DNA from: Lachnospiraceae bacterium
GTDB taxonomy: Bacteria; Bacillota; Clostridia; Lachnospirales; Lachnospiraceae
Assembly: GCA_017467845.1 (NCBI GenBank)
Contig: JAFUKH010000040.1
Coordinates: 1-36,905 of the forward strand
DNA length: 36,905 nucleotides
Reading direction: 5' to 3'
Numbering within the stretch: the stretch's first letter is position 1; each line of letters begins with the position of its first letter. This document shows, one piece after another, positions 21,000 through 24,693 of this stretch. The position numbers were made by a program, and so were the translations under genes. The notes under the pieces are model-generated. The model saw only the letters and a list, made by a program, of their open reading frames with translations. It searched no databases and was not told the origin of the DNA.

Positions 21000-21806
21000 G
21001 TGAGTAAGGTAGAGTTACTTGCAAATGCACTGGAATACATAGAACTGCATCTGGTGGAAGATATGAAGACGGAGGATATTGCCAAGGCGGTATTCTGCTC
21101 AAAATCTACGCTGGAGAAGCTTTTTCAATCCATTAATCATATAAGTATTCATGATTATGTAATGCGACGCAGGATGAATAAGGGAGCGAAGCTTCTGTTT
21201 CAGAATGAGGAGCTCAGTATTTTGGATGCAGCATTGCAGGTGGGGTATAGTAGTCACGAATCCTTCACAAGAGCTTTTAAACAAGTGTGGAACTGTAATC
21301 CTTCGGAGTTTCGGGGACGTGCCCGGTATAGCGAGATTTTTCCGAGATTATATCCACCAATAGAATGTGGAGATGAGTATATGATGAATAGAAGACATGT
21401 AGATATCAGTGAGCTGTATGATTTGATTGTTGAGAGAAAGAATTGCTATTATATTTGCAGTGACATTAAGAGACTGGTTCCCATTAACGAAATCAGTCAT
21501 AAGGCGGGGGATTTAGCTATTTTAGAGTCGTTGAACCGTTTGAATGATGCAGCAGGGGGAGAGGATGTAGTCTTCCGTATCGGCGGTGATGAATTTGTGC
21601 TTTTGACTGCAAGTGAAGATAAGGCGTATGCAGACGGTCTTGTAGAGAAGATTCTCGCAAAGAACGGAGAGACCTTCCGTTATGAAGATATGGATATTCC
21701 GTTAAGTCTTTATGCAGTGCCTTCGAAGCTGGAGTTGAAGCAGGTGAAGTACAACGAGGTATTCAGACAGCTTCATGAGACAATTCAGGAGAATAAAGAA
21801 GACTAA
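21000..21806 (+). CDS. AraC-type DNA-binding domain fused to a GGDEF-type domain
   Basis: This 268-residue protein has a full AraC/XylS two-HTH domain at the N-terminus (about 5-108: TEDIAKAVFCSKSTLEKLF and LDAALQVGYSSHESFTRAFK), the reverse of the usual C-terminal location. Residues about 130-265 resemble a cut-down cyclase domain: SDIKRLVPINEISHKAGD replaces the DxDxFKxxNDxxGHxxGD segment and RIGGDEF at 193-199 is intact, but about 60 residues usually before it are missing. It may bind rather than make cyclic di-GMP, or act as a plain regulator. GTG 21000 is the start, with AAGGAGG 6 nt before it. Target genes are unknown. Confidence 0.78.
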   Translation: MSKVELLANALEYIELHLVEDMKTEDIAKAVFCSKSTLEKLFQSINHISIHDYVMRRRMNKGAKLLFQNEELSILDAALQVGYSSHESFTRAFKQVWNCNPSEFRGRARYSEIFPRLYPPIECGDEYMMNRRHVDISELYDLIVERKNCYYICSDIKRLVPINEISHKAGDLAILESLNRLNDAAGGEDVVFRIGGDEFVLLTASEDKAYADGLVEKILAKNGETFRYEDMDIPLSLYAVPSKLELKQVKYNEVFRQLHETIQENKED

Positions 21807-21871
21807 GGAGTGACAACTACTTTATTATTTAGCGGATTCCGGCGTCCTCGCATGTAGTAGTTGATGAGGCG
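21803..21871 (-). pseudogene. Remnant resembling the 3' end of a MATE transporter gene
   Basis: Read on the minus strand, 21824-21871 gives RLINYYMRGRRNPLNN, close to the last residues of the intact MATE protein 1.5 kb away (FIIHYARGRWNPLNKY). At the DNA level TTATTTAGCGGATTCC is shared exactly and the next bases largely agree. No upstream MATE sequence is visible, so only the tail remains. It could be the scar of a lost tandem copy or of a rearrangement. The match is short, hence moderate confidence. Confidence 0.5.
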
Positions 21872-21977
21872 CGAGGTACTGCCGGGTATCTGGAAGTGTG
21901 AAAAATATGCTTAGACACTATTTTTCTCTGAAAAGTATGAATATGAATTGAAAAAGTAACTGTACAGACTATTTTTT

Positions 21978-22026
21978 GTCAGAGATACCACATTTGGGGA
22001 GAATGGGTATCTCTGACATTTTTTTT
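21978..22026 (+). terminator. Hairpin H1 with conserved loop and T8 tail, upstream of the nuclease gene
   Basis: GTCAGAGATACC (21978-21989) and GGTATCTCTGAC (22006-22017) form a perfect 12-bp stem, closed by the 16-nt loop ACATTTGGGGAGAATG and followed by eight T residues. It has terminator form, yet no gene on this strand ends nearby except the AraC/GGDEF gene 170 bp before. The loop recurs with one change in hairpin H3 at 23073-23106. It may be a terminator for a short RNA. Confidence 0.85.
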
Positions 22027-22098
22027 GAATAGAAGGTACTATTTAGAGATTTTATGATAGTAAAATGTGTGGAATAAGTATCTCTTGACGATATTGAA

Positions 22099-22121
22099 GG
22101 TATCAGATACCCATTGGTATT
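22099..22121. repeat. Tight GATACC/GGTATC repeats (H2) before the nuclease gene
   Basis: GGTATC-A-GATACC (22099-22111) runs into GATACC-CATT-GGTATT (22106-22121), so two alternative small hairpins share the middle arm. The GATACC/GGTATC words are the same as the stem tops of H1 and H3. The DNA between 22027 and 22180 holds no other gene-like feature. Confidence 0.55.
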
Positions 22122-22180
22122 AATTGAAAGAAGTGCTTGACTTTTGGAGAGAGGCTAGTAAACTAATCTTATAATCAATA

Positions 22181-22975
22181 ATGAAGGAGGCGAGGATTAT
22201 CTACAAAGAAATGCAAAAAGAATACGAGCGATTGGAAAAGAGAATTGCTCAAGTAAAGCAAGAGTTAACTGCTTTGCCGGAAGGGAAGTTGATCTGTGCC
22301 CAAGGGAACAATTGTTATAAGTGGTATGTCAGTGATGGACATCATAAGACTTACCTTCCCAAGCGAGAACGCAGGTTGGCAGAACAGTTGGCATATAAGA
22401 AGTATCTAACGCTTTTATTGGAGGAAATGGAGCATGAGAAAATGGCGATATCATTTTATCTGCGGCACCATTCTTCAGGGAGAAACAAATTTACACATCT
22501 GCTTAAGGAACAGGCTGGTTACCGAGAGCTTCTATCACCTCATTTCAAATCTGCATCACAAGAATTGTCTGATTGGATGCAAACTCCTTATGAGAAAAAT
22601 CTAAATTATCCTGAATATTTGATTCATGAAACAATTGATGGAAACTTTGTGCGCTCTAAGTCCGAGGCGATGATTTATCATGCCTTGTATCTGCATAAAA
22701 TTCCCTTTCGATATGAGTGTGCACTTACGGTTGGTGGAGAGACTTATTATCCGGATTTTACGATTCTGCATCCGAGGACGGGAAAGACGTATTATTGGGA
22801 ACATTGTGGACGTATGGATGATGAAAATTATTCTCAGAGAGTGTTTTCCAAGCTACATTCTTTCAATGTACATGGTATTATGCCGGGGGTACAGCTGATT
22901 GTTACTTATGAAAGTGGGAAGTATCCGTTGCGACAGTTCGAAATCGAAGAAATAATAGAGAAATATTTCTTGTAG
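22181..22975 (+). CDS. Stand-alone PD-(D/E)XK-fold nuclease-like protein
   Basis: This 264-residue protein has an N-terminal coiled coil (about 1-35) and a helical middle; residues 155-260 carry a restriction-nuclease-like core: E162 (VRSKSEAMIYHAL), then YPDF with D192, then YYWEHCG with E207. The usual lysine is replaced by H208/C209, a pattern I associate with nuclease domains in some helicases and transposon-type proteins. Catalysis is therefore likely but not certain. The start is ambiguous: ATG 22181 has no ribosome site, while AAGGAGG at 22184-22190 lies just after it and points to ATT 22196 or ATG 22211. GATAC-type hairpins bracket the gene. No methylase, helicase or transposase is next to it. 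Confidence 0.72.
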   Translation: MKEARIIYKEMQKEYERLEKRIAQVKQELTALPEGKLICAQGNNCYKWYVSDGHHKTYLPKRERRLAEQLAYKKYLTLLLEEMEHEKMAISFYLRHHSSGRNKFTHLLKEQAGYRELLSPHFKSASQELSDWMQTPYEKNLNYPEYLIHETIDGNFVRSKSEAMIYHALYLHKIPFRYECALTVGGETYYPDFTILHPRTGKTYYWEHCGRMDDENYSQRVFSKLHSFNVHGIMPGVQLIVTYESGKYPLRQFEIEEIIEKYFL

Positions 22976-23034
22976 AGTATCCCAAGGGTTATTCTTTTGC
23001 AGGAGATACTCAAAAGTGATAAATGAATAACCTT
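22975..23034 (+). other. Possible pseudoknot right after the nuclease stop codon
   Basis: GAGTATC (22975-22981) pairs with GATACTC (23005-23011), and AAGGGTTATTC (22984-22994) pairs with GAATAACCTT (23025-23034) with one bulged G. The order of the four arms crosses, which is the H-type pseudoknot topology. The first base of stem 1 is the last of the stop codon. It may be a structured 3' RNA. Chance pairing in AT-rich DNA is possible. Confidence 0.4.
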
Positions 23035-23072
23035 AAAGAGGGAATTAGTAAATTTTCAATGAGAAAATGTAT

Positions 23073-23106
23073 ATAGATACCACATTTGGGCAGAATGGGT
23101 ATCTAT
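23073..23106 (+). repeat. Hairpin H3, second copy of the conserved-loop hairpin
   Basis: ATAGATACC (23073-23081) and GGTATCTAT (23098-23106) form a perfect 9-bp stem with the loop ACATTTGGGCAGAATG, identical to H1 except for one base. The outer stem bases differ from H1 but still pair. No T tract follows, so unlike H1 it is not a terminator. The stretch 23107-23305 has no convincing gene, though GATAC/GTATC words recur at about 23124, 23168 and 23195. Confidence 0.75.
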
Positions 23107-23305
23107 GTATAAAAACAGTTTCGGAGATACTGAAAAGGCTGTTTTATTGGGGAGAAATAGCAAATAGAGTATCTTCGTCAAAAAAGAGATTATGTGGATA
23201 CTGGGTAAGTATAAACAAGGCAAGTTTTAATTGGGAGACTCTGATAAGCAGTTGCAAAATGCTTTGCTCGTGCAAGCAGAGAAAGTGTTTTATGCGCTGC
23301 CATAT

Positions 23306-23352: not shown

Positions 23353-24693
23353 TTAGTACTTATTTAGCGGATTCCACCGTCCGCGCGCATAATGAATGAT
23401 AAAGAGGACGAAGAGGAGCATATTGTGGGCAATCATGCATGCCCATGCAGCTACCAGTCCCATTTCCAGAAGCTGGGTACAAATGAAGGTTCCTATGATG
23501 CGGATTCCCCACATGCCGATGATGTTGAAAATAAAGGGGACAATTGTCTTACCAACACCTTGCAGCATACCTTCGATAATGATGGACACTCCATAAAAGG
23601 GCTCTGATACGGCAACCATGCGAAGAACGATAGAGCCGAGAAGGATGACCTGAGTATCCTTGGTAAAGAGGTTCATCATTGCCGGTGCGAAGATAAAGAG
23701 GAGTCCACCGGAAATAATCATTAGGAGAACTTCGATAAGAATAATCATCTTGGCAAGGTCTTTCATGCGCTGTTTGTCTTTTGCACCGTAGGCATTGCCG
23801 GCCAGGGTGGCGGCAGCAGTCTGCATACCATAGCCCGGGATGTAGAATGCGGACTCTACGGTATTGGCAATGGTGTGTGCTGCGGTAGAGATCTCGCCCA
23901 GGGAATTAATCATGGAGGCAAAAAATACATAGCCAAGGGACGTTCCAAAACGTTGTAACATATTGGGAAAAGCCACCTTTAAGCAGGGGCGTAATATCTC
24001 CTTGTCCGGCTTAAAGCTTTGCCCTTTGGGGGAAAGCATGGGATGTCGCCAAAGCTTAACCGTAATGGCAACACCGCCGAAGGTAAAGGCGATGGCACTT
24101 GCGATGGCAGCACCGATAACTCCTAAATTCACACCATATATTAATATGCAATTCAGAATCACATTTATAATATTCACCCAGATCCCAATCAGCATAGGAG
24201 TCTTGGTGTCTCCGGCGGCACGTAGTGCTGTGCCGAAGATGATGGTAGCTGCTCTGGGCAGCATAGGTGTATATAGAATGAAAAAGTAAGTGGCGGAGAG
24301 CTTCTGAATAGATGGATCCACCTGCATCCATACCGGAACCATACCACTTAAAGAAAGGGTCAGTATGGTAAATAAGATACCGGATACCAGCGTTGCCAGA
24401 ACTGCCTGGGATACCACCCGGGAAGCAAGCTTTTCATCATCTGCGCCGTACGCTTTGGCGATAATGGACAGAAAGCCTACGGCAAGCGCTGAGATGGTAC
24501 TTCCCACCAGCCAGTTGACGGTGGTAGTAGCACCTACTGCAGCGGTAGCGGAGGTTCCCAGACTTCCTACCATGGCGGTGTCAATATATTGTACTGCGGT
24601 CTGCATCAGCTGTTCCAACATGGTGGGCCATGCCAGAGAGAAGATGACCGGTACCATTGCAAATTGGGATTGGTTTTTCTTTGTGTCAGTCAT
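23353..24693 (-). CDS. MATE-family multidrug/sodium antiporter
   Basis: This 446-residue protein has about 12 membrane helices and the two-fold repeat of MATE transporters: PTMLEQLMQTAVQYIDTAMVG in the first half and FPNMLQRFGTSLGYVFFASM in the second. It is expected to export cationic compounds in exchange for Na+ or H+; the substrate is unknown. The start is the ATG at 24693 (MTDTKKNQ), with GGGAG 7-8 nt before it; the open frame extends 43 codons upstream into the leader hairpin and promoter. A -35/-10 pair and a strong leader hairpin precede it. The gene is convergent with the AraC/GGDEF gene across the nuclease island. Confidence 0.92.
   Translation of the reverse strand: MTDTKKNQSQFAMVPVIFSLAWPTMLEQLMQTAVQYIDTAMVGSLGTSATAAVGATTTVNWLVGSTISALAVGFLSIIAKAYGADDEKLASRVVSQAVLATLVSGILFTILTLSLSGMVPVWMQVDPSIQKLSATYFFILYTPMLPRAATIIFGTALRAAGDTKTPMLIGIWVNIINVILNCILIYGVNLGVIGAAIASAIAFTFGGVAITVKLWRHPMLSPKGQSFKPDKEILRPCLKVAFPNMLQRFGTSLGYVFFASMINSLGEISTAAHTIANTVESAFYIPGYGMQTAAATLAGNAYGAKDKQRMKDLAKMIILIEVLLMIISGGLLFIFAPAMMNLFTKDTQVILLGSIVLRMVAVSEPFYGVSIIIEGMLQGVGKTIVPFIFNIIGMWGIRIIGTFICTQLLEMGLVAAWACMIAHNMLLFVLFIIHYARGRWNPLNKY

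Follow-up and report, generated by a model that had tools for sequence, protein, structure and literature searches.

The nuclease-like gene and its flanking arrays

The window, which is the whole 36,905-nucleotide stretch analysed here, comes from genome G000 of a gut-type Lachnospiraceae bacterium and contains a stand-alone PD-(D/E)XK-like nuclease gene. A preliminary description had placed this gene between two hairpins, H1 and H3. Our analysis confirmed the two hairpins and supported the link between the inverted repeats and the gene. The hairpins are the centres of a larger structure, an eight-site palindromic array on each side of the gene. The features are given below, with > and < marking the direction of each array site.

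21825..21851, no strand assigned: direct copy of 27 nt from the MATE 3' end, across the nuclease-array block from that gene, 24/27 identical
21885..22111, no strand assigned: 5' eight-site palindromic array, score 3.5 mismatches over 56 positions; sites > 21885, < 21913 (1 mismatch), > 21955 (1 mismatch), < 21983, > 22006, < 22034 (1 mismatch), > 22077, < 22105; gaps 21/35/21/16/21/36/21 nt
21977..22018, no strand assigned: H1, central inverted pair AGATACC-N16-GGTATCT of the 5' array
22181..22975, + strand: PD-(D/E)XK-like nuclease gene, 264 aa (P0001)
22976..23202, no strand assigned: 3' eight-site palindromic array, score 2.5 mismatches over 56 positions; sites > 22976, < 23004, > 23047 (2 mismatches), < 23075, > 23098, < 23125, > 23168, < 23196; gaps 21/36/21/16/20/36/21 nt
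23070..23109, no strand assigned: H3, central inverted pair of the 3' array
23360..23386, no strand assigned: the matching 27 nt, 3' end of the MATE gene

The C-terminal half of P0001 carries RSKSE, PDF and WEH motifs, and residues E162, P191-D192 and E207-H208 were invariant in alignments of 20 and of 41 homologues, the larger of which left out, for brevity, some stop-free loci (L083, L088, L098 and more). Homologous loci L084, L101, L118 and L128 have internal stops. In the 20-homologue alignment the third motif was E-H-(F/C/L/Y/R) instead of E-X-K, with the usual lysine missing from the putative active site, and by its sequence P0001 carries an incomplete PD-(D/E)XK signature. The N-terminal half evolves faster, being the more diverged half in 7/7 close homologue pairs chosen for comparison.

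The C-terminal half matched the PADLOC model PDC-S68 with an E value of 4.2e-30. P0001 had no Pfam family at E 0.1, a single far-below-cutoff NRPS match in NCBIfam, no PDB homologue by profile (sole match E 0.26) and no convincing PHROG match. Among the best 25 of the 50 families matched by the 41 aligned members there was no transposase; all these matches were weak, an example being Gemini_AL1_M, the geminivirus Rep central domain (three members, best E 0.035). The first ATG overlaps a strong AAGGAGG ribosome-binding sequence (22181-22205), and alignments with homologues begin at about residue 6-8. Translation may truly begin at a different codon, such as ATT/ATC at 22196-22199.

Both window arrays are made of the word RGTATCY/RGATACY (GGTATCT/AGATACC and near forms), with 16 sites in total, the symmetric order > < > < > < > < and a general gap pattern of about 21-36-21-16-21-36-21 nt. 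We scored this eight-site grammar by dynamic programming. While the window arrays scored 3.5 and 2.5 under a grammar derived from the same window and dispersed arrays that were scored, 100 shuffled windows never fell below 17.5, 40 random gap sets applied to the real window gave a best score of 16.0, and the best score in 1.40 Mb of loci from other genomes was 12 (L088), followed by 16. The spacing of the 16 sites in the two symmetric arrays is far beyond chance, and the array anatomy is very likely real.

The arms of H1 (21977-21989 and 22006-22018) paired at 13/13 positions and those of H3 (23070-23081 and 23098-23109, 12 bp) at 92%, each with 16 nt between them. The two hairpins have 33 nt in common at 94% identity, with one difference inside the loop and one outside, and their 16-nt loops are one base apart, as had been described. 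Folded as RNA, H1 reached -26.1 kcal/mol (z -7.4) and H3 -21.3 kcal/mol (z -6.5), and 0/200 shuffles equalled either. The GATAC/GTATC inverted repeats described at 22099-22121 and 22975-23011 are present, and both contain array sites; the repeat at 22975-23011 was weak as an RNA fold (z -1.0, with 34/200 shuffles equally good).

The preliminary description had further taken the conserved loop and the compensated outer stem for the mark of a functional structure. The compensation held for one changed pair, the rest of the outer stem consisting of different extensions outside the conserved 7-mers. The loop is not a feature of the family. A search of the host genome with the full-loop pattern (up to 3 mismatches) returned only the H1 and H3 places, whereas the stem pairs recurred elsewhere and the stem word with exactly 16 nt recurred with unrelated loops.

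Solo arrays and their genomic surroundings

The exact pattern AGATACC-N(8-38)-GGTATCT occurred seven times in the 3.0-Mb genome G000, six of them at exactly 16 nt, and the backward pattern four times. With up to one mismatch at 16 nt, the central pair was found 14 times in G000, against 2 for the backward control. Of the 137 other genus genomes, 66 had 1-5 such pairs, a level comparable to that of the backward control, and the others had none. Since the pair reached 14 in G000 and at most 5 elsewhere, this array family goes with the genome that carries the cognate gene. Allowing up to 3 mismatches gave a modest excess (204 vs 111), and the analysis was therefore restricted to sites with 0-1 mismatch. 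The preliminary description had held that hairpins scattered with no link to the gene would speak against it. The stem pairs are indeed scattered in the host genome, but among the 138 genus genomes they are enriched only there, and L088, a locus in another genome with the same word, has such an array beside its gene.

Thirteen G000 loci were scored for the eight-site grammar, namely the 12 of the 14 central pairs that lie outside the window and a 20-nt match, L039. Nine of the 13 were full eight-site arrays (scores 2.0-9.5), and L041 and L048 were partial. L039 and L042, which lie inside long ORFs and lack an array, were rejected. At seven of the nine full solo arrays the site was not crossed by any ORF of 70 aa; ORFs of 99, 115 and 92 aa, probably spurious, cover L038, L040 and L041, respectively.

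When 12 G000 arrays, including both window arrays and the partial L041, were turned for best fit and compared, agreement was 64% at the sites and 36% in the spacers, with a shifted null of 28%. Since the spacers are nearly unrelated, the arrays do not represent recent copies of a single one. The words have been preserved and the remaining array sequence has drifted.

Similar dispersal was seen in other genomes. In G139, a Blautia MAG, the 255-bp array beside L052 gave at least 44 genome matches at 68-80% identity, some of them short. These covered at least about 35 distinct places besides the two gene flanks, a count that may be a lower bound, as 40 of 69 candidates were scored. Sixteen of 18 inspected copies lie in gaps between ORFs. 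An alignment of 20 G139 stretches (18 dispersed copies and one gene-flank copy entered twice) had TIR-like ends and a central dyad, and the copy consensus ends in CGGGGTCTATGCA...TGCATAGACCCCG-like sequence. In G281, from another genus, 11/11 exact TTAGCCT...AGGCTAA pairs were spaced at 22 or 23 nt when 10-40 nt was allowed, with 1 for the backward control; five pairs belong to the gene locus, and the other six are spread over three regions elsewhere. In G138 (L100) dispersal was weak, with the two gene flanks and four weak matches at three places. Solo arrays are thus clear in three of the four genomes searched and weak in G138.

We then compared the surroundings of the arrays with the sister genome G026, which is 83-86% identical over the 20-kb stretch compared and 80-83% beside the nuclease block. 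Homology breaks off near position 21797 of the window and picks up again near 23369. The MATE and AraC-GGDEF neighbours are kept in G026 with a different gene (L165) between them, which suggests that the gap between these neighbours is a site of gene turnover. The nuclease block and both solo arrays compared are absent from their orthologous places in G026. At the two solo arrays homology ends beside the array, and the neighbouring sequence on one side differs too. Neither the nuclease block nor the two solo arrays corresponded to a clean empty site. The G026 genome does contain three one-mismatch central pairs.

The gene is flanked by extended direct repeats at two loci, of 255 bp (91%) and 278 bp (92%), and by weaker ones at others; any self-match of the flanks was given by 11 of up to 111 loci, some matches being inverted or very short. 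The 27-nt repeat around the window block is a possible target duplication seen in a single case, and the duplicate may stem from another event. At solo arrays, 9/10 tested flanks showed no duplication above the 95% level of the null, the tenth being L044 (27, with a 95% level of 22 and a maximum of 30). Because a clean empty site was missing and the duplications at the ten solo arrays were unconvincing, we treat movement of the arrays as inferred.

Words and spacings at homologous loci

The protein was found in 51/138 genus genomes searched, with up to 10 matches per genome, and G000 has two other paralogues (L002 and L003). A 7-mer present at least 6 times was found in 42/74 gene flanks vs 7/427 control windows of the same shape from the same loci; the 74 are those of the 82 gene loci with 600 nt available on both sides. 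L097 duplicates L096, and without it the count is 41/73. These two loci are 20.8-kb stretches of one contig with 100% identity, probably an assembly artefact.

The words varied among homologues and included TGGGCAT, TGGGTAT, GGACATA, AGGCTAA, GTCCGTG, CGGGGTC, TTGGACA, GGGCGAC and others. Several of the 42 top words were A/T-rich (AAAAAGT in three loci) or came from tandem units, not from a palindromic grammar. The own word occurred at 5.6 per kb, a value inflated by its being picked as the commonest at its locus, compared with 0.31 per kb for the words of other loci. It had been stated beforehand that homologues of the gene without such hairpins would count against the association. This was borne out for part of the loci, since 32/74 flanks lack any 7-mer present at least 6 times, but the other 42 have a repeated word. 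At L067, L089, L098, L099, L124 and the own-genome paralogue L002, word counts were no better than in shuffles.

Among the 42 loci with a word, inverted neighbours (> <) were 19-24 nt apart in 52/78 cases, opposite pairs were at 14-18, 23, 28, 33-38 or 43-46 nt in 46/52 cases, and same-direction neighbours were at 43-46 or 63-66 nt in 52/106 cases. L016 has a complete symmetric eight-site array with another word (>22<46>21<17>21<46>22<), and downstream of the gene at L088 lie eight sites with the word and order of the window arrays, one gap measuring 45 rather than 36 nt. We also analysed nine hold-out loci of four other genera, which played no part in finding the spacing rules. In four of the nine a word occurred at least 10 times, at spacings similar to those above; the remaining loci had a word 5 or 6 times, near the shuffle maximum. 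At some loci (L018/L118, L019/L120, L030, L033 and L034) the gene adjoins tandem units of about 60-75 nt in place of a symmetric eight-site array. The L118 gene is broken, but its array persists.

The word also tracked the protein. The Mantel correlation was 0.32 (p 0.0024) for 27 loci, and on a 29-row tree there were 17 word-class changes vs 20.0 after shuffling, with as low a number in 4/200 shuffles; both tests used clear-word loci only (27 and 29 of 82), with words and cores hand-picked from the counts. On the word tree GGACAT and GGGTAT were clustered, whereas GGGCAT and GGGTCT were not. Word and protein thus go together moderately. L071 and L075, near paralogues of one genome bin, have different words.

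The distances between sites were arranged in helical steps. Same-direction start-to-start distances in 39 loci clustered at 51-52, 71-72, 81-82 and 121-124 bp, with smaller groups at 61-62 and 101-103 bp. The best period for same-direction sites was 10.15 bp (R 0.70, null 0.16, n 115), and two other pair types gave periods of 10.15-10.25 bp. A set thinned by protein identity to 35 of the 39 loci, with near-equal distances collapsed, gave 10.1 bp (R 0.73, null 0.27, p 0.001). These tests used hand-picked words of clear-word loci and a uniform null, and distances within a locus are not independent. Shared descent of the arrays would produce equal distances, but not steps of ten. The steps of about 10 bp, together with the unrelated spacers, point to phased protein sites on one face of double-stranded B-DNA rather than to an RNA hairpin.

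Many genes of the family are accompanied, on one side or on both, by arrays of a short DNA word of their own; these arrays are helically phased and often palindromic. The words differ between homologues and the spacing rules persist.

Known systems, a proposed mechanism and rival explanations

Tn7 has several short binding sites for its proteins (TnsA/TnsB) at both ends and a PD-(D/E)XK enzyme. The locus resembles it in the multiple short sites at the ends and the PD-(D/E)XK-like enzyme, but no DDE transposase was matched by the seven window proteins scanned, the arrays are symmetric on both flanks, and solo arrays occur elsewhere. In ToxIN, a type III toxin-antitoxin system, repeats lie next to a nuclease gene. 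Repeats adjoin the nuclease gene here as well, but as phased arrays on both flanks and at dispersed places, and P0001 had no ToxN family match and no match in Pfam. P0001 also differs from OMEGA nucleases in having no TnpB/IscB-type RuvC/HNH match in Pfam or NCBIfam. With PDC-S68 it has the C-terminal nuclease domain in common, but the PDC-S68 models run to 1202-1273 positions, and their match to P0001 is confined to its C-terminal part.

The closest parallels in working are REPtrons (TnpA-REP/RAYT with REP/BIME). As presented in the excerpts of PMC8266576, these consist of a chromosomal gene beside its own repeats, which are also dispersed between genes; the gene is more resident than a transposon, the repeats co-evolve with the protein, and more than one set can live in one genome. 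Here too, cognate palindromic repeats flank the gene and recur at dispersed places, weakly so in G138. Unlike REPtrons, P0001 has no HUH/Y1 transposase match, and neither consensus computed has a common GTAG tag, the conserved words being GGTATCT, TGGGCAT, GGACATA and so on. REP repeats, in the same excerpts, are palindromes of 20-50 nt recognised as single strands and number in the hundreds, whereas the sites here are 7-10 bp long with phasing of about 10 bp, extend over about 230 bp in the window, and form 3 to about 35 solo arrays in three genomes. By the tests made, the system is not a member of the REPtrons (no HUH enzyme, no GTAG tag), of the type III toxin-antitoxin systems or of OMEGA. 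Prokaryotic MITEs with an autonomous partner, in the excerpts of PMC10969869, are similar in their palindromic, mainly intergenic copies (about 230-255 bp here), TIR-like ends (in G139), palindromic arrays (in G000) and a gene between like repeats; the system here differs in having no transposase match, no general target duplication, and spacers that diverge while the sites stay. Among the literature matches listed, which covered few subscription journals or preprints and included the available parts of PMC8266576, PMC8049555, PMC10969869, PMC8040213 and PMC3733652, there was no account of a nuclease gene with such arrays.

We propose that P0001 and its arrays form a nuclease-with-cognate-repeats system, REPtron-like in working but built from other parts, which would read its word on phased double-stranded DNA and maintain or spread its arrays; we put the probability of this reading at about 0.5. 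Binding, cutting and spreading by the P0001 family would follow from the sequence patterns in this way. The faster-evolving N-terminal half would read the word, and copies of the protein would come together on the phased sites to form a dimer or higher oligomer. The PD-(D/E)XK domains may then nick or cut the non-conserved spacers between inverted sites, in a geometry like that of a paired-half-site nuclease. Cutting followed by repair would copy arrays, and occasionally the gene, to new intergenic places, and the sites would stay conserved because an array that no longer binds would be neither maintained nor useful. The outcome would be a long-lived intragenomic symbiont family made up of one gene and a modest number of arrays. 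Of the suggestions in the preliminary description, that of a nuclease working on repeats of its own comes close to this proposal, whereas a structured-RNA guide or RNA antitoxin is unsupported. More tentatively, such systems may make up an undescribed class of nuclease-repeat symbiosis in Lachnospiraceae, in which the N-terminal half reads a fast-evolving word of 7-10 bp, the sites come as eight helically phased copies, and cutting in the spacers maintains and spreads the arrays.

If the proposal is true, the system is a second, independently built version of the REP/RAYT idea, with an unrelated nuclease and double-stranded, helically phased sites. Gene and arrays would then form a code that pairs protein sequence with a DNA word and is readable from genomes alone. 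Since many homologues have their own word in natural arrays, sequence data by themselves could suffice to learn this recognition code. Common gut bacteria would offer a means of testing how a single gene keeps up a dispersed bacterial repeat family, which is a long-standing question. Should its cuts fall in the spacers, the enzyme may represent a small nuclease whose sequence specificity has diversified naturally.

A structured RNA, either a guide or the antitoxin of a type III system, had been suggested for the hairpins. The very good RNA folds of H1 and H3 and the loci with tandem units of 51-74 nt beside the gene, all in one direction, agree with this, but the stem words are conserved among dispersed copies and the loops are not, sites are spaced in steps of about 10 bp, and arrays lie on both sides of the gene and at solo places elsewhere. 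The window arrays are palindromic, so that neither strand is preferred. No Rfam family reached threshold, the one sub-threshold match being rli52 (24 bits vs 70, E 0.87). We therefore rejected RNA structure as the main reading and regard it as very improbable. An ordinary composite transposon, in which the arrays are terminal inverted repeats and solo arrays are dead, MITE-like non-autonomous copies, is unlikely. It would account for the array-gene-array layout, the 91-92% direct repeats at two loci, the at least about 35 dispersed G139 copies with TIR-like ends in the 20-stretch alignment, and the one 27-nt flanking duplication in the window, but not for the missing transposase family match, the sites kept in otherwise diverged solo arrays or the lack of a general target duplication; moreover, the other two G000 paralogues are only 46-49% identical to P0001 and are not recent copies.

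That the arrays serve the host is somewhat less unlikely. A domesticated nuclease-fold protein would then bind the arrays to organise the chromosome or control neighbouring genes, with no spreading. The conservation of sites while spacers drift, the low copy number, the mainly intergenic placement and the syntenic alignment of several pairs of relatives across the gene (L053/L055, L060/L063 and L119/L121, among others) are consistent with such a role. Invariance of E162, D192 and E207 in 41 homologues is not needed for pure binding and argues against it, as do the absence of the compared arrays from G026 and the different words of the near paralogues L071 and L075. Quite improbable is a DNA-decoy addiction or self-marking system, in which many chromosomal arrays would restrain the nuclease, and array loss or foreign DNA would free it for a defence or toxin-like action. 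No partner gene was recognised beside the window gene, although the nuclease domain is common to the candidate defence proteins PDC-S68, to plasmid proteins annotated as AAA ATPase (6/9 records) or helicase (2/9) and to frames of about 1220 aa in three genomes of a phylum sample.

In that sample of 398 genomes, 12 matched P0001. Full-length stand-alone genes were present in only five of the 12, all of the same family and including its own genome; the other seven had partial matches including the nuclease half, three of them in the frames of about 1220 aa. None of the nine plasmid records (plasmid hits H1-H9, the ninth protein being unannotated) was matched over 80% of the query. In L183-L189 and these plasmid hits the nuclease domain belongs to other proteins, many of them annotated as AAA ATPase or helicase or in frames of about 1220 aa, PDC-S68-like (candidate phage defence). 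The viral_contigs collection held no relative of P0001. Three phage records matched (MT839528.1, MT837260.1 and MT839248.1); they are short (4-7 kb), unannotated fecal 'Bacteriophage sp.' entries with distant similarity (about 28-29% identity), perhaps bacterial or prophage fragments.
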